Assembly: GCF_947623445.1 (NCBI RefSeq)
Contig: NC_135246.1
Location: 436,501-500,500 of the forward strand
Length of the DNA: 64,000 nucleotides
Origin: Clavelina lepadiformis
Taxonomy: Eukaryota; Chordata; Ascidiacea; Aplousobranchia; Clavelinidae
Direction: 5' to 3'
The notes under the pieces: generated by a model
Databases searched by the model: none
What the model saw: the letters and a program-made list of their open reading frames with translations, nothing else
What the model was told of the DNA's origin: nothing
Translations under genes and position numbers: made by a program
Part shown: piece by piece, positions 1 to 63,327 of the stretch
Position numbering within the stretch: position 1 is the stretch's first letter
Layout: every line of letters begins with the position of its first letter

Positions 1-1781
1 GACCAAGCTTCCACAGCTGGCTTGTTCCCTGTTTCACACATTTCAACAGAGTTACGCTCAACTTCTTTATGTTGGCTGTCAGGCAGAGGTTAGTCTGGGG
101 ATGGTAGATGTGTCCGTCCTTAAAAGATTTATCAGTGTCATTAGAAAGCTTCAAATTTTATACAATAAACAAATCATCAACAACAGGTGATAACAAGTGA
201 GATTTTTACTAGGAAACTATGTCAAGTACGTCCTTTAGCGTGTTATTAAAAGTAGGTTAGCTATTAATAATGTTCTGTGTTAGAATTCCAAAGAATTTAC
301 GGAGGCAAATGCCTCATTGGCCTCAGCCTGGCTACAGCCTAGTGATTTCATTACTGGCAATAAAATCCACTTTTGAGATTCTGGAACGTCGTGCCAGGGA
401 TGTCGACACTTCTCAGTCCAGACTTCGCAACCATGAGCAGTCAGACAGAGTTCTGATATTGTATTCTGACGTATCTCCCCTTCGTCTGTGAGCTCATAAT
501 ACTGAGATACAAAAAGAACTTGGTAAAATATTTTAGGTCCAATGTTTCGTAAAAAATGTTTATCCACCCACTTGGCCTTTTCCTGTTCCTCTGCACTTGG
601 TTATATCGACGACTGAACCCGGGTTGCCGTGAATATTGTTCGACTCAAGACAATAGACCTCGTTGCTCGAGCATCGGATCTGTTTGAAAGTCAAGGGTTG
701 AAAAGATTTTGAGTGACGTTTCTTTTTATGACATCATACAACTAAGCTACAAACGACGATTCAAAAGATTATCGCTATTTTTTTGCCACGCAGCGGAACC
801 CAAGAGCTTTCTTCAAAAAGCAAGGTCACGTGACATCAAAACGAACCTCTCCGTGCAAGATTATCTCCTTATAAGGTACGATGTAGAGGTCAGGATAAAC
901 TTCAGTCATGAACCACTCAAAATTCCCGCATCCCATCCCTTCCAGGAACGCTTTTCTTTCGCTGACGTCAGGAATTTCCAATTGTCTTGCCTGAAACGTC
1001 ACAATCACTATCACAAAATAATTAAAACCAAACAGAAGCACATTATTCATTAGCATAGATAGATTGTATCATAGTTTTATTGAAATTATTTTCTTCGGAT
1101 CAAAACTTTCTTCTTCATTGTAAAGTCGCTTGATCTCTTAAAAGGAAGTCGGACACTGAAGATGTAGATCCAAGAGCTCCTCACCCGTGGAGACCTCCTG
1201 TAGAACATCCACTTGTATTGATCCATCCAGGTCTCTGCAATCGTCATCTTGTTTCGGATCACAGCATCTTCCTCTCCTCCTCTCTGATGCGGCTTTCGCT
1301 TCCTCCCGATGTGTCCCACTCTGGAGCACGGATTAATCTCGACGCTTCCACCACAAATCCAAACCTAGGTCACAAATATCGAATTGTTTCTATCATTGTT
1401 ACATCATAGTACAACTTTCATCGTAATAAGATTGTACAGTGCTGTAATAAAAACAATCACAAGTGGCCTCAGTACTGTAGCTCCCACCCTGAAAGACAAC
1501 TCGATGTTTTCTGACCCGATTCCATCCATGGCAAGGTCGTAGAGTCCAATGTCATTGAAGTAATCTTTCTTGATTGTAAAAGCTGCTCCTGCCATCACCG
1601 GCGTTCTATGAGAAAGCTCAAAGTTTCACTCCTGGAACGAGTATCAGGTTCTGTACTTTCCAGCCCTACTCACGTGAACGTCTCATCTCTTTTTCTCTTC
1701 TGGATTTCCATTCCTTTATTTCCGGGTTGGGTCGCCCACCGAAACTCTAGCCCCCAACCAAACGCCCCGATGGGTACATGC
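1..1781 (-). CDS. GALNT second 3' module: half catalytic domain plus ricin-type lectin domain (partial at window edge)
   Basis: Exons read on the minus strand: 1781..1674, 1605..1488, 1364..1185, 990..847, 679..572, 501..355 and 94..1 (runs off the window). The product matches the C-terminal half of polypeptide GalNAc-transferases: [16 protein letters not shown], the metal-ligand region PCSRVGH, then lectin segments with YCLES, GEIRQN and LCLTA. The first exon begins after TTTACAG with one base of a split codon, the same phase as exon 6 of the upstream gene (3847). No signal anchor and no DSH motif lies between 1781 and 2341, so this is either an alternative 3' module spliced to the upstream gene's first five exons, or a truncated tandem duplicate. 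The family tryptophan motif WGGEN reads as GSEN here, keeping the E and N. Catalytic competence is therefore uncertain. The two exons 1781 and 1605 correspond to one exon in the other module. Confidence 0.85.
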
Positions 1782-2030
1782 CTGTAAACTACTGGGGTTA
1801 GATCATAATAATAATTTGCTGATGTCAATTTGAAACTTGTAGGATGACGTTCAGTTATGGTCATGGAGGTTTCTCGGAATTTGATTGGGTACGAAACATT
1901 GTTTGCGATTCATGGAGCATTGTTAAATTTATGTCATAAAAATAACCGAAAACTCGTAGAAAAGTTGACCTTGAATGCCGTGGATATGATGCGGCTTAAA
2001 ATCCCATTTTACTGGAAATATCGAAATATC

Positions 2031-2036
2031 TTTATT
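2031..2036 (-). promoter_or_regulatory. Candidate poly(A) signal for the upstream GALNT gene
   Basis: AATAAA on the minus strand about 305 bases past the stop codon at 2341 and before the first exon of the second 3' module. If used, it would end the transcript before the second module. Position is the only support. Confidence 0.35.
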
Positions 2037-2340
2037 TGACAATAATGGGTCGTTGTTAACGCGCATCAGAACGCAACAACAGTGCAATAAAAGCAATTGG
2101 AAATAAATAAAAACAGATGGAAGGCGTCGTAACAGAATCCACAGTGCAAACAGCCACAGATGGTGATGAATTTATAAGTCACAGTGCCTACGGTAATGAA
2201 GCTAATGGAGGAGTGGCAGACAACTTTCTTGAAGTCCCCATCCTAAATGAACCGGTATATGACGCTTGGCCAATATACCACTGCCATGTGCACTACGTTC
2301 AACCGCACTACTAGATACTAGGCTGGCTGGCTGGGTCAGG

Positions 2341-5300
2341 TCAACGGCCCTGTAGACTCTTTATCGTCCATCGTTGGGAAGGACGGTCGTTGCAAGGCTG
2401 TAGAAGAACATTGGTGTCGACGGCTTCCACACATTTATTTGACATCACGTGTTTAACTTGTCCGTCCTAGTTGTTGGAGAATTACAGTTGGAGAGTTACA
2501 AAATTAGACACAAAACTTTGCTTAATAGATATAATTTTCAATCAAGCTGCCAATCCAGCTGCGTTGACAACTTACCGGGGTGATGACCCACTTCTGTTCT
2601 ACAGGGACCGCTGATTTCGGGTAAGGACAATTTTTGGTCACCACAGAGGAACCTTCCGGTTGAAGACAAAGTTCTTTGACGTAATTGTGACGAATTTCAC
2701 CTTGCCTTGTATATTCGAAGTCCTTCGTTGTAAGAATAGTAACTGAATAACTTCTGATGACAATGGTAGGTAATAATGGTAGTTATAATGGTAATAATGG
2801 TAGCAGAAGTGGTAATGGTAGTTAGCAAGGACAACAATCTCTCACATATGACCCACAGAACTGTATCGAGGGGAGGTTACCTGGTTCACACCCATTCCAT
2901 GGCACACGTACATATTGGTTTTGATGCCGATCTTGCCCTCCGCGTTGCCCGAATCCAGACAAAACTTTCCGCCCTTTTCCATATTATGCCACTGCAACAA
3001 GGTGAGGTGTTATGATAGAGAACCTTCTTGCATTGTGTAATGCAGGAACAACACAGCGCTAGGTTGGTGGCAAAGCTATAGAGAAAGTGCAGCGGGCCGG
3101 TACCTCGCCGCTTTTCAAGATGTCTTCCTTAGGCGGGGCGTACAAATCGGGATAAACGTTCTTTAAGTACCACTGGAACTTGTGGCATTTCAAATCTTCT
3201 CGAAGCTTCTGTCGATGCGAAAGATCGCCGGCGTCGACCTTTGAAATATTAACATCATTATACTATGACGACAAGTTCTACTTTTGACATTCGATGACGT
3301 ATAAATTACGTCAGATTAACGTCATAGGAATCATGCACCTTCCTTGCCCGAGCTACTCTCTTGTAATATTGCTCCTTGTACTCGTCCAACCAAACCTCCG
3401 CTACCCTCTTGCTATTTCGCGTTATGATGTCACTTCCGCCCGGGTGGGAGTAGGGCGCCCTTTTACGAAACACGTGACCGACATGAGAGCAGGGATGTAT
3501 TTCCAAGGTTCCACCGCACGTCCACACCTGGAGTTAGAAGAGATCGTGAAGAGTTTAGTGGCGGACATGTCAGGTTTCAACATGTCAGGTTTCAACATGT
3601 CAGGTTTCAACATGTCAGGTTTCAAACCCGACCCACCCTGATTGACATTTCAATGTTCTCTCCTCCCCACACCAGCATATCGCGGTCGTACGTCCCGAGG
3701 AACTCAAAATATTTCTTGCTCATTGCGAACAATCCGCCCGCCATCGTCGGAGATTGAATGGCGGCGTCACTCTCCAGGCCAGATGGCCGTTCCTGTGGCG
3801 CCCAGTTGAAGTTGAGACTCCAACTTAATATTCCGCGTTGAACAGATCTAGGCCGGATGAGGACAACCAAAGTAAAGTTTTCATTATGAAAAAATTGTTA
3901 AAATCACATATTTTTGCTATACTATAGCCTACGAAAGTAAAGCAATATATGTCGGTACATAAATACATTTATGATGACATAATCGCTTTCTATTAAGAAG
4001 TTCAATGGAGCGTGAATGCTTTTAACCAAGCGCAAATGAAATAAAGCCACCACTAATGTGCTAAGCTAGGTCTTGAAAACCTTTCTGGCAAATTTGTTGA
4101 AAGCATCACTTAAATTGCACTGCTATTCAATTCTGGCGCATAGCAGGTGTCCTTAGGGTTTGAAAACTGGACACAGCTCACGTTTAGACAAACTTAACTC
4201 AACACCACACAACTATTTATTCTTGATAACGACTAAAGTTATTTCATTCATTCTTAGAACGTTAACTCAAGGTTTCAAACCTGGCAGGTGTCAAACTCAT
4301 TGCAAATGTGTCGGCGTCAATCACTTCTATGACGGGACAAACGACTCTCGTTGGATCTTCCGCGATCCTTTCTAAAAGTGGCTCCAGCCAGTTGGGGGCG
4401 CACTCACCTAAAATATTCCGGATTTACAAGCAAAATAAAAGCTCTCCTATGTCACTCAACTCTACTTAAATATATTTTAAAGAGGATCCTGTGAAAACTA
4501 GGAACAGGACCTGGTGTTAAAACAATTTATCATCCCCTTTTGCGCGGTTTACAAAGTCACTTTGGATTATTTAAAGTCGTTTCCTAAGAACATGGTCGGC
4601 TGGTTAAGTGAGATGCAAGCAATTTGCATTTGAACTTCTCGGTGCTTAAGGAACAACAATCAGCAGAATAAATGGAGCAAGTTGCATCCAAGAAGCACAA
4701 AAGTTGCGATAAATGCAAGTCCGAGATGAACCGGATGCTGCCTTTATGACTCACAATGGGAATCGAGGAAGGTCAATACGTCACCCTCGGCCGCTCCTGC
4801 TCCTGCCAGTCTTGCTCGTATTAATCCCGCTCTCTCTGGGAGTCGGATGATATTCACTATCTGGAGATCTTTCACGTAATCGTCAAGTTGCTTCTTTAGG
4901 TCATCTGTGAGGTCATGATTACGTCATAACAATAATTTGGTAATAAAGTCTGACGGTTTGTATGCGGTTCATACCGAACGTGCTTGCGTCATCGACCAAT
5001 ATTATTTCCTTCAGCGCGACCTTTGGTGACGTTTCGAGCACGCTGTGAACTGTCCGCAAGAGGGCGCACCATGCTTCGTTATGAAATATGATGATGACTG
5101 ACGTAGTAGGAATCGGCTTCCTCCATCTACGTTCTCTGCATCTAAATAGGGTTTGTGACGAAAAAAAAACAACTTATCATGGCGGTCCGGTATAGTAAGT
5201 GCTCGCCATTGTTACAATCGCTTTAAACGTGGCATTTCACGATAGAAATAAGTGACATCAACACGACAGTTAAAAACAAAACTTCTTTCGAGCAAAGAGC

Positions 5301-6178
5301 AAGGCTTATACAGAGCATAAATATCTTCAAACTTGAATGCTTTTAGTCAGACTTGGAAGCATGCTGTGTCTATAAGATAATAAGTTGAAGCCCTAATAGA
5401 CAGGTTGACCAACATCGACTTACTCTTTGTCTCTGTTATCCTGTATATGGCGGTGTAGTGAGATCTGGTCGCACGCGTAATGGTTGAAGGCGTGCTTCTC
5501 CCAGCCCTGCTTCACCTTCCGGGATATCTCGTCGTTACTGGCAGCGACGCGGAAAGCTTTTCCGTATTCTCCGGCTCCGGCGGGATTTGGTGCTGGTTTT
5601 TCAAACCAAGGTCGCAGCTCTTCGTCATTGAAATATTCATAAACCTGATGGGGTTAGAATGTCGGTTAAACAAGTTCTTATCGTTAGATGCCGCGCACAA
5701 CCTGATGATCATTAAAGCTATGTGCTAGCTTTATGGCGTCACAATATGATTTGAGGCTCATTTTGGGCAAAAGATGCAAAGTTACGTTTTATGCAAAGAC
5801 ATGGTTGAAGTATCTCATATATCCACAGCTTAAAATTAACCATACTTTGGGATCTAGAAGTGGTTCCAGCGTGAAGTTGGACCCAGCTTCTTTGCCGGCT
5901 AACTTCTCGGCGTTTTCCGCTCTGTGCTGTGCCGGCGCCACCGCCTGTTGCGAATCGTCGTCGCCTCCGTAGAGAAACTTTGTCTCATCCAAACCCAGGT
6001 CGCCATTTTCTTCATAATCAAATCGAAACAAGGATTCGTCTTCTCGGCCTGTGCCTGTCAGTGACTGGTCGCCAGACATCAACAAACACAATCCTATAAA
6101 CGCCGTGGTGGCAAGCGCCACACGTAAAACCGTCGTTCGATATTTACGTGGCACATACCTTGTCAGAGCACGCATCAT
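2341..6178 (-). CDS. galnt: Polypeptide N-acetylgalactosaminyltransferase (GT27, ricin-B lectin)
   Basis: Golgi type II enzyme that transfers GalNAc from UDP-GalNAc to Ser/Thr and so initiates mucin-type O-glycans. Eleven exons: 6178..5846, 5644..5424, 5141..4975, 4904..4755, 4407..4281, 3847..3637, 3527..3339, 3238..3104, 2991..2881, 2722..2576, 2466..2341; phases agree throughout and give 638 residues. Residues about 17-38 form the signal anchor, followed by a stem. Seen in the catalytic domain: FHNEAW, the metal-binding DSH at about 288-290, WGGEN at 393-397, and the PCSHVGH histidine at about 421. The lectin domain fills about 512-638 with CLDS, EIRHN, ELCL and QRW repeats. All motifs expected of an active family member are present. 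Start chosen at 6178 because it opens the signal anchor. The paralogue subtype cannot be fixed by eye. Confidence 0.93.
3565..3624. repeat. 15-bp tandem repeat, four units, in a GALNT intron
   Basis: Four head-to-tail copies of ACATGTCAGGTTTCA fill more than half of the 109-bp intron between exons 3847..3637 and 3527..3339, ending 12 bases from the donor site. Confidence 0.95.
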
Positions 6179-9100
6179 GACTTATACGAGATGATTCTGT
6201 AAAAATTAGAGGAACGGTTTAATAACAAAGTGGTGTGACAATTGAGAAAGGAGACACCATTGTGATGTCTTTATCTCACATTATGACGTCATACAGATAA
6301 GCCAGGGTGCGTGACAACAACCTTTACTACAATGCATGAACTAGAGTGTGTTGCTGAATTTTGTGTGGAATGAGGGCTTGTACATAGAGATTGGCAAGAA
6401 GTTTGCGATTCACAGTCTAGTATGTTACAGTAAGGATACTATATGCTAAGCGGCTTAGATATATAACACTAGGCTAAAAGTCTTTGTTATAAGAACGGCT
6501 TCAATTTACTGTCCAGTATAGGCTTACTGTGCAGTAGTGAAGGGAGTAGGCTACATTAATGGATCGTTACAAATAGCCTAACACATTGCGTCAACGCGGT
6601 TAGGCTACGTGAATTGCAGGTTCTGTTCTTTTGCTGTTTATGATGTAGGCCTAGGCTAGATTTTGTTTGCACATGTATAAATCATCCAATACACTCCTGA
6701 ATACTATGCCTATTATAACATTAATATTATTAACACGCCTACTGTTTGTTATCCTTTCGTACAACTTAAAAACTTGGTCAGCACCTTTGCGAACAAACAT
6801 CCTGTTGTCACGTCCACCGTTTTTCCTCTATAACGTCACAATATTTGCTTTACATAATATAATAAGCGTAAACTTTGGCGATAACCACCAAACAAATTCG
6901 ACTTCTTCAAACTTATTTTACCAGGTTAGGTGAATAGTGCTCATTGAAATAAGAAGAACTTGTTTTTGCGCTGAGCAATCTCATATTAAAGCAGTGATTA
7001 CCGAATAAATTTTAAAGCTGCCCTTTTTTTATAATTTTAAAACCTTTAATCGGCCTTATCAAATGAATACGTAGAGAGCACCTTTAAAATTAAAATGCAG
7101 CGGCGTTCTAAAATGAAACTGATCGTAGTTTCAACTTAACAAAAAATTGTCACGCAATAATGATGCATTGTTATACAAAACAATGGTGGGAAAGGATTTC
7201 TCAAAAGCTTGCTACAAACTTGCTTTTAATCGTTGGAAAAAACAAAGTTTAAGTTCTGAGACCAGATTATCCTTTGGCGACTAACACGACGGCCACGCAG
7301 GGCGATTGATTAAGACTCTTGCAAGAACATAATAGTCATATAAGGACATTATGTGTTATTCTTGGTCAAAAAGCAGCCTTAGGTACCCTAATGCTAAGGA
7401 CGTGGTAATGCATATAGCGTCCACAATTCTTGTTAAACCGATTTTGAGACTCGCGCTATCCGAGGCCGAGCAGTTATATATTTAGTGCAAGCACAAGCCA
7501 TCAATTACAAGCTTTCTTATTTGACCATAACAGCACTTGCTAGCACTACGTGTAAACAGATTATATTTGCTGCCGAACGTCAGTAACCAACCAGCCGAAG
7601 TATAAATCTTGCTCTCATTATGTCGGTATATCTGCTGATTGAAGTGCTTTCTTTCCCATCAGATCCGGTTAATCCGATCAAATGAAGCCACGATCGCTAC
7701 AAATTCAATAAAATCCTGATTTGTGTATATTTTGCTGGTTCTACTAAATTGCGTGGTTGGTAAGTTAAAATTTCTGATATTTAAACCCTTTCTTGACTAA
7801 AAACAATTGATAACTGCTCTATATGGCTTTCATTGCTCTCAGTGCTACTGCTAGGTAATTTGTGAAGAAAGAACCGCCAATATAACCCACCGGGGAATAA
7901 TCGTATATCGCTTACAAGGGAATTATGTGCAGATATTGAACAACTGAAGTACTTTCGAAAGTCTCCACATATTCCCATAATAACACTTTCATACGCGCAC
8001 CACTTATTCCTATGACGTCATAAAGTTCTTACGCCGAAGTCGTTCAGAATGAAGCGAGTGTAACAATAAAAATTGATTTGTAGAAATCGCCTAAATACTC
8101 ACAGAAGAATATAGTAGCATAGCGCTAGTGTGCAATCACGTTACCGTAAATGCAATAAGATTGTGGACCTACATGGCATCAGGATTCGTCACAAATCGAT
8201 TTAGCCGCAGTTAAATAGCCTTATCTCAAACCCTATCGCTATTCTAAAATCAATAATACAGAGCCATGGAAAACGCATTTTAAATCGTTAGTCGAAGCGC
8301 TAATTCAATTTGTAGTTATACACAATACGTCATTATGTATTGTTCTTAACAGTGCCAGATTCGAGTGCAAAGCAATCAAGTCACCAAAATTCTATCCATG
8401 CATGATACGGCGTTGGTTCAATTGTAGCTTACTACCAGCAATAGCTAAAGCTCACTTTGACTTGACGTCTGACCTTCAATTCAGCAGAAACTTTAAAAAT
8501 CTCGTTCAACCGTAGCTTAATGCTGAACAGTTGGATTAAAAAGACGGATTACTCGTCGTTTGTTTATACACAGCCCCGCTTAAGGTGATTTATCACAAGA
8601 CTCGCTGCAACTCTCCAACAACAACGTTCGTTTTTTCTGAACAATACGTGGCCACATGAACCCGGATCTCACTCTCACCGATCTCCATAAACGTCATCAA
8701 AACTTTTCCCAACAACGACCGGGTGGCGGAAGTCGTTCGCATTGTTCTCACAGCGCCGCTACTCTGTATGGCGAGGCCATGTTTGGTCGCCAAATCCAAC
8801 CTTTGCCGCTTTGGTTTATTCTGAGTTTAAGTGACGTTAGATCCCGCCTGATACGAACGTAATTTCTCGCCATGTTCCACAAACATGGTGAATCGTTGAA
8901 TCCTACAAAGCTTTGTTGCGTTTAAAGACGATATTTCCTCTGAACACGCTGCTGACGTTTCAAATATAATTCTACGCGGTCTTAAATGCGTGAAAGACGA
9001 AAGGTGTTTTCTGATTCATTTCTGCTCACAGAAAGCTTATTAAAACCTACGTAATCGTCTTAACTGCACGAGCCAGGTATTCACTTATGACGTCGAAACC

Positions 9101-12020: not shown

Positions 12021-15000
12021 ATGAAGATTATTTCATTGTGCGGAGTTCTTGTCTTAATGTGCTGCGGCGTTGATGCCCAGTTCGGATTTCCTGGGATTTT
12101 TAAATTTAGTAAGTACAACTATAGCAGCTTTTTCATGTGCAATAAGTTTAAAGTGATGTTAACTGTTATGAAAAACTTTTATGTTACAATAGTGCTTTAG
12201 GTTTTTAAAACATTTCAGTAATAAAAATATAAAAAAAAAACTCTTTTACATCAATTTTTTAGCTTGTAAAAGGCCATCTAACCCCGCCAATGGGAAATTT
12301 ACCCCCTCCAAGTCGAAATATAATATTGGACGAAGTATAACTTATTCGTGTAACACCGGCTTTAAACTTTCATCGCCGAAAAGCAAAAGAACTTGCGTTA
12401 TTAATACGTTTGTCCCTGGACCACCTAGCTGTGTTGGTAACTGGATTTTTTCCTAATTAGTTTTAATTTGATTTGTGTTCGCTTGAATGTTATTCTTGCT
12501 TTAGTGTAATTGCTTTTAGCTCACCTCAAAATCTAAGTTAATTTACTTGTGCTGACGTTGATTTTCGATCCCTTACAATCAGACATCAACGAATGTGAGA
12601 ATAATCCTTGTCACAGTGATGCGACTTGCACCAACACCAAAGGAAGTTTTAGATGTCGATGTAAAACCGGTTATTCTGGAAATGGAAAATTTTGCGCTGG
12701 TGAGCAATCAATCATGAAAAATTGCGATGGCACTAGTTGTGCTAGAGTCAAGACATTTTCTTAATCACTGCTTGACCGCACCTTTGAAGCTTAATCCCAT
12801 AATTTTATAAATCTCATTTCTTCACAGACAGAGACGAATGCAGGAGCAGACCTTGCCACCCTGATGCAAATTGTCGAAACACCAGAGGGAGTTTCACCTG
12901 CAGATGCAAGTCCGGATATAGTGGGGATGGATTTCGGTGCCGAGGTAAAACTTAGAAAATTGCTGAAATCATTTAAACAATTCACAAAATGCATGTCATG
13001 CTACAGATGTCAACGAATGTACAAGAAGTCCCTGTGATGAGAACGCTGACTGCACCAACATCAAAGGAAGTTTTAGATGTAGGTGTAAAGATGGTTTTAT
13101 TGGGAACGGGCGTGAATGCGGTGAGTTTCATTACAATAATTTACCAAGTAAGTAAGATAAATAAGTAAGTAAGCAAATAAGGAACTAAGTAAGTAGGTAA
13201 GTAAGTAAGTTAAGTAAGTAAGTAAGTTAAGTAAGTAAGTTAAGTAAGTAAGTGAGTGAGTGAGTGAGTGAGTGAGTGAGTGAGTGAGTGAGTGAGTGAG
13301 TGAGTAATGTTCGTGTATGTGCGTACGAGTTCGTTCGTGTGAAAGTTTATGTGCGTGTACGTGCTAGCGCGTATAAGCTAAGCGAAGAAGTTATCAAAAA
13401 TAAAAAATGACCATTTCAAAGAGCTTTAAATTGATTTAAAGTGTTATTATTATTATTGTGTTATAAAGTGTTAAAATGTTATTATTCTTTTATATAACTG
13501 CAACATGTGCTTGTAGTAAGAAACTCTTGTGCGTCCAATCCCTGCCACTCTGACGCCGACTGTACTAACACCGATGCTGGCTTCCAGTGTGAATGTAAAG
13601 CAGGTTATACTGGGGATGGAACAACATGCACAGGTAATAAAAATGTGACTTATTAAACAAAAAGTTAATTTTTTCAGCTCGCAAGCTGCCAAAGCAAACT
13701 CGAAGCAGCACAATATCAAAAAACAAATTATTATTATTCATTAGATGTCAATGAATGCTCGAGCAGGCCTTGTCATAATCGCGGCGCCACTTGTACAAAC
13801 TCCCCCGGAAGTTACTCTTGCAAATGCAGGAACGGATACACAGGAGATGGGAAGCAATGCTCAGGTTATTTTAATTTCGCGTAACATTTGGTCGGTTATA
13901 AGACGCACACACTGTACTCTATACAGCATGGACAGTGCACTGTACACAATGTACTGTGCATACTGTACTGTACATACTGTACTGTACATAGGCTACTGTA
14001 CTGTACATACTGTACTGTACATACTGTATTGCAGAGGTCGGGAACTTATTGCTCGCGAGCCAGATGTGGCTCTTTTGCTGACGATCATCTGGTTGGCAGA
14101 TAAATCTAAGCTGGCATTTTTTTGCACGATTGTCACGAATAAAACTTTTTCTGTATTTGTAAATCGTATTAACAGTAATAAGCATGTTACATACGTGCTT
14201 TAAGACTTAAGTAAAAGTATAAGTTGCAATGTCCTGTTACTGCGCATAGACATCAACGAATGCCAAACTCAACCCTGTGATGCCAATGCGAGATGCATTA
14301 ACACACCTGGAAGATATTTTTGTAGCTGCAATCTTGGCTACGGAGGGAACGGACGAACCTGCACGAAACGTAAGTGTGGAACGTGAGATAATTTACTCAA
14401 AAAGTGGACTAATTAAATGCAATAAAACATAACACTTCAACCATAGACTTACTACGATATTTCTTATCATCTTGTTTATTCTGTATAGTCGCTGAATGCC
14501 CTACCCCTGATTTGGACATCGCAAATGGACGCGTATCTGACAACCGGTTCGGAACCTACTATGAAGGAAACGTACTGCGAGTCATTTGTGACGTAAACTA
14601 CAAACTCAATGAATTCGTGGTGTTAGGGTCAATCGGTAGATTTGATCGAAATAGTTATCAATGTGGTAGCGATGGAGAATGGGCCGGGGAAATTCCAGAA
14701 TGCATCGGTGAGTGCATGAACGTGCTAGCTTTGTTATTTGTTTGTTCATAGCAACCAAACATACCAGAGCAAAAGTAACTTGTTCGGAATTCTTGTAAAC
14801 TTAATCTCGAGGTCGGAAGATTGAAAATGTTGTAATAAGGATCTTACTTCGATTTCTTTTGTTCAGTAATGTTGCCCAAACTCTTAAAGTTATTCCAGAA
14901 CTTTCAAAACGCCAATAAGCTCCTTCGTTTAACCTGCTATATGCTGCGTAGTGGGATAACACCTGTGTAGGAGTGTTGCTGGTTCCGTGACTACTTACTA

Positions 15001-25286: not shown

Positions 25287-27148
25287 TGGGCCATAAGGCG
25301 CAATTTAAATTCTTTTTTTTCCTCATAAATTGATCGTGCACCTTATAAGCCGGTGCGCCTAATGTATGGATCAAGTAGTGCTTTATTGCCTACACTCAAA
25401 ACCAGTACCGATACTATTATTATATATATATAAACCACCGTCTTACACAATAAACTATGGGAAAAGCAACTAGCAACTGTGATATTCACTAGGCTCATTT
25501 TTTCTTTTGCTCATTGTACTATTGTGACTTGCTTACATTTATTACGTAACAAGTAAACTTTTATTTCTCTTGCTCCTCATAATTGTATAATGCGAATACT
25601 GCTGATATCACCATTTTTTTACAGTACCTGCTGTCCTTAAAATGGCGCCAAGGAGAAATGCTTACGAAGCGAGCTTAAAGCTTAAAGCAATCGAGTATGC
25701 AGTAACCCATGGAAATAGAGCAGCTGCAAGAGAATTTAATGTTAACGAATCGATGGTACGAAAGTGGACGAAGCAAGAAGATGCGCTGCGCCAGGTAAAA
25801 AGGAACAAACTGAGCTTTCGAGGGCATAAGGCAAGGTGGCCACATTTGGAGGAAAGAATTGAGCAGTGGATTATTGAGCAGAGAAGTGCAAGTAGAAGTG
25901 TCTCTACATTCTCTATTCGGCTGAAGGCAAAATCGTTAGCATGCGAGTTGGACATTAAAGACTTTCAAGGTACCCCTTCTTGGTGCTTTCGTTTTATGAA
26001 GCGGCACAATCTTTCCATTCGCACCAGAACTACCGTTTCGCAACAACTACCAGATGATTACCGAGAAAAACTGATGTTGTTTCGCACCTACTGCACAAAC
26101 AAGATCAATGAACAAAACATCCAGCTAAAACACATCACAAACATGGATGAGGTTCCCCTGACCTTTGACATCCCCGTAAACCGTACCGTCGAAAGAACAG
26201 GAGCCAGTGCTGTAAGTATACGGACCACAGGAAATGAGAAGTCATCCTTGACAGTAGTTCTTGGTTGCCAGGCAAATGGCCAGAAGCTACCGCCCATGGT
26301 CATTTTTAAAAGAAAGACTTTACCAAAAGAAAATTTTCCGGCTGGTGTCATCATCAAGGCCAACCCAGAGGGCTGGATGGACGAAGAGATGATGAGTGAT
26401 TGGTTACGAGAGGTTTACGTGAGGAGGCCAGGAGGATTTTTTAATAAATCGCCATCTCTGTTGATTTATGACTCCTTGCGCGCTCATTTGACCGATGCAG
26501 TTAAAGCTAAAGTTAAGAAAACAAACTCAGAGCTTGCCGTTATTCCGGGTGCGTTAACCAAAGAACTTCAGCCGCTAGATATTGGTATCAACAGACCATT
26601 TAAGGCTAAATTGCGAGTTGCAAGGGAGCATTGGATGACAGACGGCGAACACACGTTTACTAAGACAGGGAGACAACGACGGGCAAATTACGCAATTTTA
26701 TGCCAATGGATCGTAGATGCGTGGGCAAAAATATCAGTATCCACTATCATGCGATCATTTAGGAAAGCTGGGATAATCACTGGACAATTAAATACTGATA
26801 ATAGCGATGAGGCAGACTCTGACAGTGACGAGACAGATCCAGGAATGCTTGATGTCGAAATCGCACAACTGCTGAATTCCGACACAGAAGATGAAGAATT
26901 TGATGGATTTCCGGAGGAGGAATAAACTCCACTTGTTTTAAGTTTTTAATTTTTGATCGTTTCTTTGAATAAAACGCAATAACCATAAAAAATATTGAGC
27001 ATTTTTGTTTAATGAGCTTTATACGGTAAACCATACTCCTTAAAATACGTTGCGTTCTATAGCCCGGTGCGCCTTATGTTTGAACAAAAAACTAATCAAA
27101 GCAATTTATTGACAGTGCGCCTTATAATCGGGTGCGCTTTATGGTCCG
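25287..27148 (+). mobile_element. Tc1/mariner-pogo DNA transposon, apparently full length
   Basis: 1862 bp between TA dinucleotides. Terminal inverted repeats TGGGCCATAAGGCGCA (left) and CGGACCATAAAGCGCA (right, reverse complement). Further GTGCGCCTTATA-type repeats lie inside both ends (near 25340 and 27070-27135). Encodes one uninterrupted transposase. The match between the two ends is imperfect, so exact termini are provisional. Confidence 0.8.
25642..26925 (+). CDS. pogo/Tigger-type DDE transposase
   Basis: 427 residues, one exon, no stop or frameshift. An N-terminal helix-turn-helix of the psq/CENP-B kind (residues about 10-45, AAAREFNVNESMVRKW), a second DNA-binding CENP-B-like part (about 65-125), then a DDE_1 catalytic domain. 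The likely catalytic aspartates are D169 in NMDEV, D277 in LLIYDS and D313 in LQPLDIGINRPFK; the last gap of 36 residues suits pogo-type DDD enzymes. The C-terminus is acidic. Sits about 355 bp inside the left terminus and 223 bp from the right. It could be an active transposon gene or, less likely, a domesticated one; the flanking inverted repeats favour the former. Confidence 0.92.
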   Translation: MAPRRNAYEASLKLKAIEYAVTHGNRAAAREFNVNESMVRKWTKQEDALRQVKRNKLSFRGHKARWPHLEERIEQWIIEQRSASRSVSTFSIRLKAKSLACELDIKDFQGTPSWCFRFMKRHNLSIRTRTTVSQQLPDDYREKLMLFRTYCTNKINEQNIQLKHITNMDEVPLTFDIPVNRTVERTGASAVSIRTTGNEKSSLTVVLGCQANGQKLPPMVIFKRKTLPKENFPAGVIIKANPEGWMDEEMMSDWLREVYVRRPGGFFNKSPSLLIYDSLRAHLTDAVKAKVKKTNSELAVIPGALTKELQPLDIGINRPFKAKLRVAREHWMTDGEHTFTKTGRQRRANYAILCQWIVDAWAKISVSTIMRSFRKAGIITGQLNTDNSDEADSDSDETDPGMLDVEIAQLLNSDTEDEEFDGFPEEE

Positions 27149-43735: not shown

Positions 43736-46721
43736 TCACATCGCGACCGGGTTGTTGCAAACTAAAAACTGGTCGGCGAGCATGTTCGCGCCCGGGGAAT
43801 CCCCTTCGTCTTGCCACAACGTCATGTTGTTGACGTCATTGATGATGCAATACTGCTGCGGGCTGCCGGCGAGAGTCACCGCGTCTCCAAGTAACTCGGC
43901 GTTCAAGACAATGTCGAAGTTTTGTGCAACGTTTGTTGCGTAAGAATCTGCCGAACTATTCACAAACAATGGGATAATGATTGCGAGCATCGATCTCACA
44001 AATGCTCGTGTCAACAGCTTGAAACGTTCAACAAGCTCCAATATTAAGCACGGATGTTAACAGGAGCCAGGAATGTCAACAGCCACAAATTAATTTAGCA
44101 AGTTTGCATTACAATATCGCAAGTTGAATTAACAAGTCAACTAGCTAGTGGATATGTAATACACTAGAGGTCGCTTTATGAAGCATAAAATATATCTCAC
44201 CACTTGTTCTCCTCTTGGCTGGCAAGCAAGGACACGTCGTCTGTCACAAGGGTACTTGGCTCCACAAGGTAGCTTGGGTTTTGCGGAAACGCCTCAGTGC
44301 ACATTGACGTCATATCCGCCTCGTTCAGGCATTGTGGGGACAAAGTGACGGCATAGTTCTGACCGCAATATTCATAATTATGTTTAAATGGACAATCAGC
44401 CAGTAAAAAGCGATCGGAATTAGATTACAGCCATGACATTCGCGATAAGACGAAGGGCAATAATAATATTTAAAACAGGGCGAATGCTACCTGCCACATA
44501 TCCGGACTCATAGTGCTGGCGACGTTAGGGGGCGCCACAGGTGCAATTTTCTTGGAGCAACCTTCCCCACTTTGGCCTGCATCTAAAGAAAAATAAAAAA
44601 ATTGAAATTACAAAACCAAAACATGCTTCACCTGACCGTCATTCTATCTCGAGTGTATCGCGTTCACCAATGGTGTTGGTCGATGGAAGTTGTCCTTCGA
44701 ACTGAACATTGTTCCAAACGTTTCCCACGAATTGAGTGATTGGGATTGTCTGCACTTCAACAGGGGCCACGTAGCTTTGCATAGATGCATAGGTGTACGC
44801 TGGGACAAACTGGCCTGAAAATACAAAGCGGATGAAACCGTCCGAATTTTTTTCAATATTGGTTCTGTAGCTCTAAAGTAGCAGTGTTTTAAACATTTGT
44901 TGAAGCATAATTAATGGCCTATGTAAAAGAGAACCAAAAAAAGCAACATTTACCTGGTTGCACGTGCGACTGCAAAGCGCTTGCTTGAAGCAACTGATTG
45001 CGTCTGCTTTTGTAGTGACGTAATGCTCGCAGCGGACGATATTTCGGTTTCGGTCCTTTTCGGGACGGTCTCATTCCTCTACAACGAAAATGTTGGGATA
45101 CGGCTCTGGAAAAACATGTGACGTCATTTGAAAATAACGTAACAACAGCGCCTCAAAAATATCTTGATAGACCTACGTGTTATAACCCCTCATCGCTTCA
45201 GCCATTAAGGAGTTTCCTCTGTCGCATCGGCTAGCTGTCTGTGATGACGCAACTTGCCGCTTTATCCTGTCCAAGTAGTCCATTCTACCCCGAATAAAAA
45301 ACGCATGCGCATAGCGTTGCCAATCACGTGGGTCGACATGCTTGTCGCTATCCAAGGTGACCTTAATACAGAAATAACTGAGTTTTGTTTGTAGATGAGG
45401 ACTTCATTTGAACTATTATGTAGAAGTATGCTTTCTTAGAGTTGTCCTTTGCAGCCACAAATACAACGCGGTTACATGCATGTCCAAATATAACATTCGC
45501 GATGCATTGTAGGCTATTATGAAATATTTATCACAATCATTACGATTACAGTTTCGTCAACTATATTAGGCTACAAATTTATTCACTGCTGTGAAGTCAT
45601 TTTAGACAAGTAGTACCAGAAAATTTTGAAAAGCTTAGAGGCACATACAAAGATAAAAAATCACTTCCCTGAAAGCTAAATGCAAATTGCTTTGAACCAA
45701 GCGAGCTTTCTGATACAGTATATGCCAGAAACCTTGGCAACTACTGTTTGTGGACACTGGTCGGTCAATTCAACCCACGGACGTTATTTAAGTCATTTTG
45801 AGCTTAATCATCTGTCGTTTGAGTTGACATGAAACCACCTAGGTAGAGTAGCCTAACAAGCGAAAGCTGAGCATGTGATGCTATCGGTCACTGGTCAGCT
45901 CTTACTTAAACCGGTATAAATTCTGACTGAAAAGTAGCGTACGGTACTACCGCACTTGTTTTCTAAAAAAACGGTAAGAAGTTGATTTTGTTAGCCTCCG
46001 TGAGTGGCTTAATTTGACCTATTGCCAACGCGCCGCTTCTCAACGTGAAAGTTAGCCTTGGAAAATCAGCCGCCCAAGCCTACTTCTACGAATACAGTTT
46101 AATTTCAACTCTTTGTGTTGTTAGTTTGCCCGCATGGTAGTCGCTGGTAAACATTTATGTTTCATACTGTACTTGTCTGTAGGCTACAGAGTAACTATTT
46201 CACAGGAAGTATATCACGTAGCCTATATTGTTAAAGATAGGCGATTAGGTTACGAGAAAGGATGTATGCAAAAAGTTTATTTTAACTGTTTACGCTTATT
46301 TGCACCTAGGTTTAGACTGAAAAGAAGATTTAGGCCAGTAGCCTATAGTCTAATAGCCTATTTACGCAAGGTTTACAGGAGACTGGGAAAAATAGCTTCA
46401 AACGCACGTTTTTTTCCCAATAAAATAGTCTAGTAAACGTCTATCAACAATTACCTTTCGAAATCCATATAAGTTCAGCTGTCGAATGAAACTGGTGAAT
46501 GTGATTGTTTTGAAACCGTCAGCTTCAGGAACGCTGTCATTTCGCAGTATTTCTTGCTCAAACCGAGGCACGTCCACAACAAAGTGGTTACCAGTTTCTG
46601 ACCACCAAAGTGAACTGTATTTCTCATCACTGACAAGTCTAAATAGCTTTACAGGAAAACACGTGTAGCTTAGCTCTTTTGTTGTTTCACCGCTCCTTAT
46701 GGTGACGGTAGACGGATGCAT
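43736..46721 (-). CDS. Heat-shock-factor-type DNA-binding protein lacking the HR-A/B coiled coil
   Basis: Exons 46721..46455, 45361..45177, 45078..44954, 44814..44668, 44582..44491 are phase-consistent. Then either 44358..44197 (stop in place, 325 residues) or 44358..44201 spliced to 43955..43736 (397 residues). Exon 1 holds the HSF winged-helix domain: FPVKLFRLVSDEKYSSLWW, FEQEIL and the recognition helix FTSFIRQLNLYGFRK. The domain ends in exon 2 with HAFFIRGR and LDRIKRQV. What follows is basic, then Pro/Val/Thr-rich, with no heptad repeat, so it resembles the HSF5/HSFY/HSFX branch rather than the trimeric stress factors HSF1/2/4. The second C-terminus adds an acidic, hydrophobic tail (MTLWQDEGDSPG) that could be an activation region. 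Which end is used is undecided. Confidence 0.82.
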
Positions 46722-47029
46722 ATCAACCAGCAAAAATACCTTTGAAGACCAATTCCAGAATTAACATGACATTCCCGAACATGACCAAATTTAAAATGCG
46801 GTTTCAATTTTTCCTTAGACAATAGTCCATTATTGGACTCTCTATTGCGTCATTGCGACAAACTGCTGTGTGTGTAGCCTAATGTTAAAACAAAAAAGGC
46901 AAAATAGATGATTGCATTTTAAAGGTAAGCTTTTAATTGATAAACACGAGCTTTCCATTTCATAGTACTGTATTACCAATGAAGCAATGTCAAGCTCGTG
47001 TTGGTTAATTGGAAGTCGACCATTATAGT

Positions 47030-49729: not shown

Positions 49730-52274
49730 ATGAATTTCAAACGTATAAAAATTGCAACTTCGAGAAGACGATTGTGGGCCCTTCTGGCTGGTGCAGTAAT
49801 CGGGATTATTTTGAACGCGTAAGTCATGTTTCGGTAATATTAAAGCAAGAATCTGGAATCTTAAATGGTAATATCATATGTGGAATTTTTCAGGAATTTG
49901 AAATGAAATATATTTTAACAGCATCGTTAACTGGTTATTTGTGAGTCCGCTTTGCTTCAAACGTATACGGGACCTGACACTCGTCAGATGCGGAGAACAA
50001 CGTTTTGATGGAAATGTGATTGCTAAGTTGTCAGCCACGAAGGGAATCTACATGCAAGAAATGCCAGAAGAGAGATCACCAATCAGTTTCTTGCTGCGCC
50101 CTACAGCGGTAGAAGAAATAGTTGAAAATTGTGAGTTTTGTGACAGTTTTCTCAGAAATGTTGAAGCTGTTTTCCGAAAACTACAAGATCCTGGTTTTCA
50201 TTAGTTTTGGTTTCAGACAACATTGTATACAATCCATTACTCAGCAGTTGAATCGTCATGTTATGAATTAGTAATTGTTTCTCAACCTTCAACCTTCAAA
50301 CAAACGTTACACAGTATTGGACATACAATAGTAGAAAACCAAACAGTACACTAATTATCAACCCTTATGCAACGTTAATAGGCGTTAACCAATAGTCCAA
50401 CACCATCGATTATTTTGTGTAAACGGACTTTTTTCACAGTGCATCTCGCACGGTGGAACATGGTCTACCTGGTCAAGTCCGCGGTCTATAACTGGGACAG
50501 GAGAGACGCTATTCGTCGAACATGGGGGTCGGAGAAAGTAGTTAACAGCGCCATATTTCAGGTGGTGTTTGTTCTCGGTAAAAGTGTGAACGGGACTTTC
50601 ACGGAGCAAATACAACTGGAATCTGAAGAATACGGAGATATCTTGCTGTGCAATGAGACAGACTCTGCTCAGTAGGTGTCTGTTGTTTGATATAGAATAT
50701 ATTTGTAATTTGTGTTAGTTTTTTGCTTCCCTAGCTAATCTGCGTTTACAACTCAGCTCGACTCAACGTAGCACAAGACTTGACAAATGACTAAAACTAT
50801 TTTATTTAAAATCAACTCGTCGTGTTCCAGACCTGGGCATGAAAGATTTCGTTTCGTTTTCAATGCCAGGTTCTTTGTTAATTTGAGTCAGTTACACACA
50901 CATTGATTTACTGTACATGTTTGAAGGTTTGTGTCCGAAAAAGTGGTAGCTGGCATGCAGTGGGCTTCCGAGGTCCTGCCGGAGAACTGGTTGTACGCTT
51001 CTATCGATGACGATTTTGTCGTAAATCCGTCCACTTTGACCGGGTACCTTGATTCTCTTATAAGTACCCACACGACAGTAAGCGGTGAAATTTGCTTCGG
51101 TGATCTTCCCATGGCTTGCGTCTATAACTACCAGTCCGCGGATCCTCCGGCCCGGGATGAAAACTCAAAGTGGTACATGCCGTTTGAAAATTACCCGGGA
51201 AATTATTGGCCGGTTTATTGCCGCGGTGGAATGTACACTACAAGTAGCAAAATGGTCAAAAACTTGTTCGAAAAATCGAAAAGGACTGCTCATCTTTATC
51301 TCGATGACGTATGGATCACTGGATTTATGCGTCGAAAGCTGAACAAGGGGGACTACAATATCGTGGTATGTATGTTCTGGTACAGCGTACATTTAAAGTT
51401 AGCAGCAGTATAAACTGCATGTATTTGCGCTGCTTGCACGACAAAAACCAAGACCGCCGAGATGAAACTTTTGCAAGGTTTAGTTCCTCTTAAGGTTCAG
51501 GCCTGTAACTAGCATGGGGTTAGGCAAGACTGGACCCCTCCTAATTAGAGACTGGACCCCTCCTAATTAGAGACTGAACCCCTCCTAATTAGAGACTGAA
51601 CCCCTCCTAATTGGAGACTGAACCCCTCCTAATTGGAGACTGAACCCCTCCTAATTAGAGACTGGATCCCTCCTAATTAGAGACCGGAGCCAATAAAGTA
51701 TCAACATTTTTGTCTATAAAAAAGTATTTCTAAGTTGTGAACGCCTCCTTAAATTTGTTGAGTACTGCTTGGACAAGAAAGCTACTGGTATGTTAAGGCT
51801 TTACAAGTCTTCACTTTTGCGACGAACCGATAAAGCTCCGGCTTAAAACAACATGGTGTTGTTTTTAATTCCGAAAGTTCGGTCAAATACTCCTTTGATT
51901 TGTGGTCGATAAAATTAGTTTTCAGTGAAGGACGTATTCATTTATTACACGTCGGATTGGTGATTGTGATATGAATAGCGTAAGACGAGCTTTTCCTAGT
52001 AGGCTGTACGGTTTTAGATATTCGACACTTCTTTGTTCTTGCTGTGTAGCTATTTGCAAAGACGTTTAAATAAATAGTGTTTATTTACTCTTTTTAGCCC
52101 GCTCCTTTGTCAGTTATGAGTGATCGTTCTTCCCACGGAGACCACGCGCTTGCAACGCAGTTGGTTAAACATTTGTGGGGAAATATCAACGACATAAAAG
52201 TCAATGTGACGAAAAGAATCCTGGAGGTTTGGAAGACTTATTCATTGAACAGAAGAGCACCGATGTGCGGTTAA
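49730..52274 (+). CDS. Family-31 beta-1,3-galactosyl/N-acetylglucosaminyltransferase-like
   Basis: Five exons: 49730..49818, 49922..50130, 50440..50671, 50927..51365, 52098..52274; 381 residues. A short basic cytoplasmic tail (FKRIKIATSRRR) precedes a signal anchor at about 15-36 (LWALLAGAVIGIILNA, split by intron 1), placing it in the Golgi. GT31 motifs: RRDAIRRTWG, VVFVLG, the metal-binding triad DDD at about 204-206, KWYMPFENYP and YCRGGMYTTS. The usual EDV motif reads DDV at about 303-305, a conservative change in a catalytic region. Several N-glycosylation sequons are present. Donor and acceptor sugars cannot be assigned. The start is fixed by the signal anchor. Confidence 0.88.
51526..51690. 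repeat. 22-bp minisatellite in the glycosyltransferase intron
   Basis: Seven or more near-perfect units of AGACTGGACCCCTCCTAATT plus two bases, varying at a G/A and an A/G position, in the last intron. Confidence 0.95.
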
Positions 52275-60544: not shown

Positions 60545-61881
60545 GCTTAAATAAGCGGCAGAATCGTAAATTCATCGCTTAATTGTGATGGCTCTTATTA
60601 CGTCACAATCATATAAACAAAAGCATATAAAACTAATGGGTTTGTTTTTTTATTCGTTTTTTTATGGTTTTACGTTTTATTTTAGTAGATATGGTTTTTT
60701 CGTACGTTTTTAGGTGATTGCGCTTTAAAAGTGAGTTTAAACCAAGCGATTGCTGGTTAGTGGAGTACACAATGCTCTATGTCGGGTTTCCTTTATTGAG
60801 CCACGACACATGTTTTACATTAGAAATGTCACGCCGTACACCACCGAGCAAACATATCACAAAACAGTATAAATGACAACATGAAATAAAAATGTAGTCT
60901 CAATTTACCAGCTCAGTGTGAAAATCTATAACATTTGTCAACGAATAATTCCCAAACTATTTCCACAATAACTTTTCCTGATGTATATCAAAGCCAGGGA
61001 ACCGGGTGTAGGATGACGAGCACGTTTTCGTGATTAATGAGTTGTAATGACTTCCCGGAGTTCCGGCACAAGGACACAAGGCAAGATTCGTATGTTGCAG
61101 CACGAGATGTCCTTCTATGAAGGCTGGAGATGCATTTACGGTTAGATGTGAACCCTCGAACATTCTTAGGGAAATAGCTAAGAAACATAACGCCACTTGT
61201 ATAAAAACAGTAAAGTGAACAGCACTTTATAATGTGGTGAAAGTGAATGTAAAAGATTGGTGGCCAATGGGCCTAGCTACCATTTTGTAAGCTTAGGCTG
61301 TAGCCTACATTCCTACAGAGATTTCACGAAGAGGGTATTATTAGAAGAAACAAATATTAGCCAGGGAAAAGGAAGCATTCGCTCGAAAGATAACATATGC
61401 GGCGGCTCACAGACTGTTGCAGACGTAATAGGAAAGTTGAGCTTCATAAAACTTTCATATGACTAGAACTGTACCTCTAATGAGATACTGGACAGGTTCA
61501 ACAGTTTCGTGAAAAAAATGATCATTTTGCCAATCCTTGAGGTTGATCGGATGATGAGGTTGACGGCGCTGCCGTCTCCTGTTTAGTTGAAAAGTTGCCT
61601 CGTTTTGGCATATTGGGCTTATTCAGCAAGGGGTAGCGTTTCAACGCAAAAGTTAGACAGTTTTTTCGCTTCTTTTTTGTAAATGCTTAGTCGGTTCAAT
61701 ATTGAAGCATGCAAACCGTGACGTATAACTTGGTTACAATTTATGATTAGCCTATCGACTATGATAATATTAACCAGATTTTCTTATTAGGCTACTTACA
61801 AATGCGTAAAGGCCTAAGCTAAAACTATCAGATACAACCAATTAAGAAATTAAGTTGAATTTGACTCATTTTAACAAAAAA
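60545..61881. other. 5' flank of the transporter gene
   Basis: Open frames in two minus frames around 60957..61196 have no recognisable family. Nothing else seen. Confidence 0.5.
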
Positions 61882-63327
61882 ATGACAGAAGGAAGAAATG
61901 AAGATGATATGCAAGAGAAAGAAGTAGACAAGATGAAAGAGGAAGTCACAGATGACATAAACAGCGTGGAGCTTGCTGTTTACACGAGGCGATGGGTTAT
62001 CCTGCTCATCGCTTGTCTAGCCATCTTTCTCAGGGGATTCAACCAATCCTGTTATGGACCGATCAACAACGTCTTCGTCAAGTTTTTCCACATACAGCCG
62101 TGGCAGGTGGACTGGTTTATTCTCACGCAATCTGTCGTTTTCCTCAGCATGGCGTTCCCGCTATCATTGATAACTGCGCGCATCGGCTTCAAGAACTCTT
62201 ACGTCATGATGTGCGCCGGATTGTTCCTCGGCTTCGCGCTCACTACGGTCGGGGTTTCAATGAGAACCGGATACGTGTCGGTGATCGTCGGGCAGTGCAT
62301 TATGGGTTTCAGTAACATCATCTCGTGGTCGATACCGCCCCCAACTGCTGCCATATGGTTCGCGTCCAACGAGGTTGCCACCGCCGTGGCACTGCAGGTC
62401 GTTGGCAGAGGCATCGGCGAGTCAATTGGATCAATTTTGACGCCACAGATAGTAAATCCTACGCAGACAGACGAAACAATTGCATTTCGACTGATGTGGA
62501 CATTCGTTGCAGTAACTTCCATAGCTGCTGTCATCACCTTGGCCTCGGTGTTTTTCGTGAAGGACGCTCCTGCCCTGCCACCTAGTGAGGCGCGCGCCCA
62601 AGCGATCTCCGCGAAGGAAAATCAGGGCAATATGCAAACCGATGATTTGAAGACCACCCTGAAGCAGTATGCCGCCGTGGTCAAGCAACTGTATAAAGAC
62701 CCTTACTTTGTGGCCGTGTGGTTCGTATTTGGGGCTGTTAACCCGGTTTTGCGAAACGACAGCGTCCTACTATCGTCCGTTCTACACAGCACCTTTAAAA
62801 ATATCCCTGATCTCGATAAAAAGTCCGGCTATGTCTTAATGGGCGGTTGGATCGCTTACACAGTAGGTGGCTTTATCGCGGGACCGATTATAACCAAAAC
62901 TAAAAAGTACAGACCGGTTGTGCTGATCAGTGTTGGCCTCGAATGTGCTGCGACGTTGGTAGTCATGCTCGGTATAAAATATCGGGTCTTGGATTGTGTT
63001 TACGCTGGAGTTGTAACCACTGGGCTCTTCCTAGGGATGGCCAACACGTCCCTATTCGAGCTCTTGGTCGAAGTTACCTATCCAAAGCCTACAATGCTGG
63101 TCACCATGGTCAATATCGTCGGAATGGGATTTTTTCGTCTTATTTATCCCATCATCGGTCGAGTCATGTTGGCCAGAGTCGGACCCACCGCCTCTTGTGC
63201 ATTTCCCTTCGCTCTCACACTTCTGTCAACTATAATATTAGTCATTATAAGACCGCAGTACAAACGCCAGATGGCGCAAGAGTCCGAACTACGACACTTA
63301 TTAGAGCCAGAGGAATCTGAGTCATAA
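61882..63327 (+). CDS. SLC49/FLVCR-like major facilitator transporter, intronless
   Basis: 481 residues from the first ATG at 61882, one exon. A charged cytoplasmic N-terminus (about 40 residues) precedes RRWVILLIACLAIFL, the first of about 12 hydrophobic helices, with a long hydrophilic loop near residues 230-265 between the two six-helix halves. The WQVDWF in helix 2, the WFASNEVATA stretch after helix 4 and GESIGSILTPQIV resemble FLVCR-family members, which move heme, choline or related organic cations across the plasma or organelle membranes. Substrate not assignable. Acidic C-tail (EPEESES). The lack of introns among intron-rich neighbours suggests a retrocopy or an intron-less family branch. 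Confidence 0.82.
   Translation: MTEGRNEDDMQEKEVDKMKEEVTDDINSVELAVYTRRWVILLIACLAIFLRGFNQSCYGPINNVFVKFFHIQPWQVDWFILTQSVVFLSMAFPLSLITARIGFKNSYVMMCAGLFLGFALTTVGVSMRTGYVSVIVGQCIMGFSNIISWSIPPPTAAIWFASNEVATAVALQVVGRGIGESIGSILTPQIVNPTQTDETIAFRLMWTFVAVTSIAAVITLASVFFVKDAPALPPSEARAQAISAKENQGNMQTDDLKTTLKQYAAVVKQLYKDPYFVAVWFVFGAVNPVLRNDSVLLSSVLHSTFKNIPDLDKKSGYVLMGGWIAYTVGGFIAGPIITKTKKYRPVVLISVGLECAATLVVMLGIKYRVLDCVYAGVVTTGLFLGMANTSLFELLVEVTYPKPTMLVTMVNIVGMGFFRLIYPIIGRVMLARVGPTASCAFPFALTLLSTIILVIIRPQYKRQMAQESELRHLLEPEESES

Follow-up and report, generated by a model that had tools for sequence, protein, structure and literature searches.

Alternative versions of a single GalNAc-transferase have been described in Drosophila. 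In pgant9, which produces PGANT9A and PGANT9B, exon 8 is swapped (8A or 8B) within the lectin alpha repeat and the choice of substrate is changed (PMC6115407), and in pgant5, which produces PGANT5A and PGANT5B, splicing swaps catalytic residues 398-457, including the flexible loop, with an altered substrate preference (preprint PMC12776162). A further arrangement is that of the human UGT1 (UGT1A) locus, in which 13 first exons with promoters of their own, four of them labelled pseudogenes, precede the shared exons 2-5 (PMC5356909).

Here, we describe a GALNT gene on the minus strand of a 64,000-nucleotide stretch of the Clavelina lepadiformis genome (the whole stretch analyzed, hereafter the window), in which five shared exons are followed by two complete 3' modules, A and B. 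As in pgant9, coding segments of a GalNAc-transferase gene are duplicated, and the copies follow shared exons and agree in phase; unlike the exon 8 swap of pgant9, the duplication extends from the middle of the catalytic domain through the stop codon, each copy has poly(A) signals of its own, and alternative splicing is predicted. As in pgant5, part of the catalytic domain including the flexible loop exists in alternative versions, but whereas pgant5 varies residues 398-457 only, the present locus doubles the regions varied in pgant5 and pgant9, together with everything between and after them, as one block. The original prediction had called the swapping of half a catalytic domain unusual, a statement that must be tempered given that pgant5 already swaps catalytic residues 398-457 (PMC12776162). 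The likeness to UGT1 is that of one glycosyltransferase locus in which half of the enzyme is common and the other half comes from diverged alternatives; UGT1, however, varies its 5' end through first exons that carry their own promoters, whereas in the present gene the common half is the 5' one and splicing would make the choice. In the literature, which we covered in part, we found no report of a tunicate GALNT locus with two 3' halves, nor of the locus in the window.

The exons and signals of the gene, all on the minus strand, are as follows.

5846..6178, minus strand: shared exon 1, with the ATG, cytoplasmic tail, signal anchor and stem (open frame, donor gtatgg)
5424..5644, minus strand: shared exon 2, stem and start of the catalytic domain (spliced translation)
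4975..5141, minus strand: shared exon 3 (spliced translation)
4755..4904, minus strand: shared exon 4, ending in the DSH metal motif (spliced translation)
4281..4407, minus strand: shared exon 5, ending in phase 2, the proposed branch point of the two isoforms (donor gtttga)
3637..3847, minus strand: module A exon 6, WGGEN motif, equivalents of Gly309 and Trp331 kept (translation, GALNT2 alignment)
3339..3527, minus strand: module A exon 7, equivalent of His359 and flexible loop (translation, GALNT2 alignment)
3104..3238, minus strand: module A exon 8 (spliced translation)
2881..2991, minus strand: module A exon 9, lectin alpha repeat, CLD...YVCHG...NQ kept (translation, alignment)
2576..2722, minus strand: module A exon 10, lectin, 147 bp (spliced translation)
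2341..2466, minus strand: module A exon 11, end of the lectin domain and stop codon (spliced translation)
2031..2036, minus strand: AATAAA, likely poly(A) signal of module A, in its UTR
1674..1781, minus strand: module B exon 6a, starting in the phase left by exon 5 (acceptor gtttacag, phase 2)
1488..1605, minus strand: module B exon 6b, Gly309 to Ala and Trp331 to Ile (translation, GALNT2 alignment)
1185..1364, minus strand: module B exon 7, equivalent of His359 kept, loop changed (translation, GALNT2 alignment)
847..990, minus strand: module B exon 8 (spliced translation)
572..679, minus strand: module B exon 9, lectin alpha repeat, all four GalNAc-contact positions changed (alignment)
355..501, minus strand: module B exon 10, lectin, 147 bp (spliced translation)
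1..118, minus strand: module B exon 11, end of the lectin domain, with 31 further bases past the window edge to TAA (flank of the same genome)

Taken together, the shared exons run from the ATG through the signal anchor and stem into the catalytic domain, of which they cover the part that ends shortly after the DSH metal motif. Module A consists of six exons (3847..2341, stop TGA) and module B of seven, from 1781 to 31 bases beyond base 1 of the window (stop TAA), with two AATAAA signals downstream, outside the window. Under the predicted splicing, the shared exons encode 638 amino acids with A and 650 with B; both forms are open throughout, each of their introns is GT-AG, and all seven B exons are bordered by AG and GT. 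The first exon of either module is in phase with the end of exon 5, and the details given in the original prediction held: exon 5 (4407..4281) ends two bases into an Arg codon (phase 2, last bases AG), which is completed by an A from the exon at 3847 and by a G from the exon at 1781; the 15 residues that follow align without gaps between A and B, 6 of the 15 being identical when counted by eye; and the lectin exons at 2722..2576 and 501..355 both measure 147 bp. An extra 68-base intron (1673..1606) separates B6a from B6b, the matching A exon (3847..3637) being unsplit, and a branch-point-like ctaac was spotted by eye about 20 bases upstream of B6a.

Other features of the region were recorded along the way. 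The intron between A exons 6 and 7 carries, near its donor, four perfect copies of a 15-base unit (3565..3625), a fresh repeat whose length is possibly variable. Upstream of exon 1, a good acceptor-like site, tctaatttttacag (6212..6179, minus strand), ends 18 bases before the ATG and would suit a spliced-leader trans-splice site. On the plus strand lie a Sushi-repeat exon (14413..14751), an uninterrupted frame of 439 amino acids with Tc5-type DNA-binding and DDE_1 domains, namely a transposase (25606..26925), an exon of a Galactosyl_T gene (50925..51413), which places another glycosyltransferase family some 45 kb away from the GALNT gene, and a single frame of 493 amino acids for a major facilitator superfamily transporter (61846..63327). 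The minus strand has an exon with an HSF-type DNA-binding domain (46398..46760). Beyond module B, on the opposite strand (L009, about 7380-7480), a gene appears tyrosinase-like by eye, with a HHPLFLSWHR-type motif.

The simplest reading of this layout is that exon 5 can be spliced to either A6 or B6a. We assign a probability of roughly 0.7 to the proposal that the locus is one GALNT gene whose 3' half exists in two diverged tandem versions, reached by these two joins. In one case, exon 5 would be joined to A6 and the transcript would end at the poly(A) site of module A; in the other, it would be spliced across 2,499 bases to B6a and the transcript would end at the poly(A) site of module B. Up to the end of the DSH half, including the Golgi anchor and the stem, the two products would be the same, and the doubled block would comprise the catalytic domain's C-terminal half plus the entire ricin-type lectin domain. 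A direct splice from exon 5 to B6a is in frame, and the 2,499-base intron that it would need is not out of range, because in the paralogues at C4 (8.57 Mb) and C8 (12.80 Mb) pieces that are nearly adjacent in the protein lie about 2.3 kb and 2.1 kb apart, respectively. Both the occurrence of this join in RNA and the role of B are inferred. A weak point of the proposal is that any duplication of these exons would leave the two copies in equal phase, so that the match does not prove that B is used. An acceptor score gave 6.03 for B6a and 5.92 for A6, compared with 6.57 to 12.1 for the nine other training acceptors, and B6a was the only one of the seven B acceptors to rank within the best nine of 152 AG sites; this score is weak evidence because it was trained on ten sites only, A6 included, because B6a and A6 both score low, and because a single B acceptor is well ranked.

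The phases would also allow a more piecemeal use of the two modules, in which exon k of A joins exon k+1 of B in frame, so that the lectin part or smaller pieces only would be swapped. The acceptor phases are 2, 0, 0, 0, 0, 0 in A and 2, 2, 0, 0, 0, 0, 0 in B, and since all acceptors after exon 6 are in phase 0 in both modules, such joins are possible. Yet matching phases are non-specific, being expected of any duplicate, and the conserved exons B6 to B8 would be left with no role, for which reasons we rate mixed splicing as very improbable.

One question for the main proposal is whether B has a 5' half of its own. The original prediction stated that no anchor or DSH exon lies between 2341 and 1781, and this was borne out: a tblastn search with the shared half at E<=100 returned three antisense hits there, the best with an E value of 0.48. 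A separate first exon for B, looked for in the 559 bases before B, did not emerge beyond chance either, the longest in-frame stretch from ATG to GT being 37 amino acids, a length equalled or exceeded in 91 of 300 shuffles. Over the 84 kb around the gene, tblastn returned, besides the five known exons, 2 chance-level hits only (E 3.7 and 5.4). Genome-wide, at least 10 loci match the shared half (221 residues searched, E<=0.01), and the 3' halves match the same loci, at least 10 in number, with the GALNT locus of the window matched twice, plus one scrap of 28 residues; these counts are lower bounds. At the same threshold, we saw no orphan 5' half in the genome, each listed locus having its own 3' half. 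That each of the nine other GALNT loci has a single 3' half is taken from the genome-wide searches, because the stretches around these loci miss some 3' ends. With at least 10 5' halves for at least 11 3' halves, no spare 5' half was seen for B, and the only one found in cis to it is the shared one.

The scrap, at C4:23515601-23515684, is an isolated piece of a GALNT catalytic exon that is 68% identical to module A over its 28 residues; within the surrounding 9.9 kb, an overlapping piece was the only other GALNT match by tblastn, and neither the tree nor the tally of eleven 3' halves includes the scrap. Two places with a PF00535 match (C5:4.39 Mb and C2:1.56 Mb) were dropped as GALNT candidates after yielding zero tblastn hits at E<=1.

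These searches bear on two other explanations of the locus. Module B may be a separate short unit, with a promoter of its own or with spliced-leader trans-splicing at 1781 as a second cistron, which would yield an anchorless protein made of the C-terminal half. A 16-mer that we take to be the Ciona-type spliced leader was found, with four additional bases and at most two mismatches, at 20 sites versus 3 for the reversed control, which makes trans-splicing plausible in this genome, and the 559 bases from the A stop to B are short enough for an operon. However, a transcript with a leader at 1781 would have its first ATG at 1779, out of frame and closed by a TAG after ten codons; the search for a first exon ahead of B gave nothing better than chance; and the C-terminal half by itself would lack the anchor and two of the three metal ligands. 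We therefore think a separate unit quite unlikely. As an aside, six alike sites of the spliced-leader 16-mer, each followed by TTAA, lie on C9 at about 8.98-9.34 Mb, possibly a cluster of spliced-leader RNA genes. The other explanation is an assembly error, by which the 5' half of a complete second gene was lost or collapsed. Tandem copies are where assembly errors occur, but nothing in the data points to one here: the window lies inside a 20.4-Mb contig and contains no N, a collapse that removed the 5' half of a neighbor alone and left no mark is implausible, and no spare 5' half exists elsewhere among our hits. We regard an assembly error as exceedingly unlikely.

The proposal of two alternative modules gains from the state of B, which is intact in spite of its high divergence. 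At the protein level, A and B share 40% identity (123 of 304 aligned codons), and the DNA differs at 46, 36 and 67% of codon positions 1, 2 and 3, respectively. On the sequences compared, this contrast between codon positions indicates that, after the two copies separated, at least one of them evolved under protein constraint, and it cannot tell which. Module B has retained its introns, and its seven exons are free of stops, frameshifts and broken splice borders, whereas copies of A that had accumulated the same amount of change in a neutral simulation, under a simple model of random base change uniform over bases and sites, contained 13.3 stops on average and were never stop-free in 5000 runs. 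The GC3 of B (0.535) is level with that of the shared exons (0.536) and of A (0.578), the GC content of introns being 0.372; synonymous codon usage was uninformative throughout the gene. The open frame at such divergence, the kept borders and a GC3 like that of the shared exons led us to reject a decayed duplicate as the main reading, an alternative raised in the original prediction that fits badly with a seven-exon module open at 40% identity. On this view, B would be a relic left by a partial tandem duplication, rarely or never transcribed and decaying slowly. The long branch of B, its lack of Trp331 and Gly309 and its failure to match Glyco_transf_7C at E 0.001 are in keeping with a relic, and the loss of the two residues could equally mean relaxed constraint; set against the absence of stops, frameshifts and broken borders where the neutral expectation is 13.3 stops, and against a GC3 level with that of A and of the shared exons, they leave this explanation unlikely in our estimation.

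As to the origin of B, a tandem duplication of the 3' half and a duplication of the whole gene with later loss of the 5' part both fit. Among the sequences compared, A is the best scorer of the whole module B (phmmer, 256.7 bits versus 209.4 for GALNT4, the best PDB chain). The catalytic part of B scores 172.5 bits with A versus 153.4 with the best PDB chain and, by blastp, 165 bits with A, 156 with GALNT3 and at most 145 with nine paralogues whose sequences are incomplete; its lectin part scores 81.0 bits with A, no other lectin having been scored alone. Trees of the catalytic part, built on 16 rows of which nine are gappy paralogues assembled from tblastn hits, placed B on a long branch of 1.5 to 1.6 changes per column (median end branch, 0.4). 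Its sister in the best tree is the paralogue C2c, a placement without support (73/28.8), and the grouping of A with B is neither supported nor rejected (p-AU 0.188).

Isoform A has the GT27 architecture, a GT-A catalytic domain followed by a C-terminal ricin-type lectin domain, with Pfam matches to Glycos_transf_2 (119.2 bits, residues 199-379), Glyco_transf_7C (36.2 bits) and Ricin_B_lectin (71.7 bits) and scores of up to 515.6 bits against solved GALNT structures in the PDB. GALNT4, GALNT3 and GALNT12 (PDB 5nqa, 6s22 and 6pxu) are the best PDB matches of both modules, with 269.6, 266.6 and 255.7 bits for A and 209.4, 200 and 193.2 bits for B; for the catalytic part of B alone, the order is GALNT3, GALNT4, GALNT1. 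Module B retains the lectin fold (Ricin_B_lectin, 67.3 bits) and, unlike A, has no match to Glyco_transf_7C at E 0.001. It departs from GALNT4, GALNT3 and GALNT12 at Gly309, at Trp331 and at the lectin alpha site.

The numbers of catalytic residues used here are those of GALNT2, fixed by alignment, and their functions are taken from PMC4432651 and PMC6994419. In GALNT2, Asp224, His226 and His359 are the manganese ligands, Trp331 is a mobile gate and Gly309 contacts the N-acetyl group of the donor (PMC4432651/PMC6994419), while GalNAc is bound at the lectin alpha site by Asp458, Tyr471, His474 and Asn479 (PMC4432651). By alignment, isoform A keeps the equivalents of DSH (exon 4), His359, Trp331 and Gly309 (A6/A7). 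Module B keeps the third metal ligand, His359, in a VGH context, and has Ala for Gly309 and Ile for Trp331 in the donor site; both residues are kept in 10 of the 11 3' halves found in the genome, B being the sole exception. The flexible loop of B is changed as well, with Gly for Phe361 and His for Tyr367. At the lectin alpha site, as read by eye from PDB alignments that did not include GALNT2's own lectin sequence, A keeps all four contacts (Asp, Tyr, His, Asn) and B none (Glu, Thr, Arg, Gly). The original view that the two products differ in their acceptor-side and lectin halves thus applies to the acceptor side and the lectin; the swap is not confined to the acceptor side, because the 3' half carries His359, Gly309, Trp331 and the flexible loop, so that residues of the donor pocket are exchanged too.

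Under the proposed choice between A6 and B6a, product A would be a standard transferase, closest to the GALNT3/4/12 group, and product B would keep the metal ligands, with an altered donor pocket and without a recognizable lectin alpha site. Based on the last two features, product B is probably specialized, slow or regulatory, and it may be either a re-specialized enzyme, a weak enzyme or a non-catalytic partner. Our tentative suggestion, to which we lean less than to its opposite, is that one gene gives rise to a lectin-guided transferase, A, and to a protein B with a rebuilt donor pocket and lectin site, which would have another choice of donor or acceptor or would act as an inactive partner that competes or dimerizes with A, the choice between the two products falling to the splicing of an entire half-enzyme.

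To our knowledge, the swap would be the largest in the GALNT family if B is used, since the exchange would extend over half the catalytic domain, donor pocket included, and all of the lectin domain, rather than over a loop or a single lectin repeat. The locus would then be the mirror image of the UGT1A locus, with a fixed 5' half and a variable 3' half. The predicted products A and B are identical over their first 333 residues, and a functional B would therefore make this gene a natural experiment on which part of a GALNT sets donor use, gating and lectin guidance.
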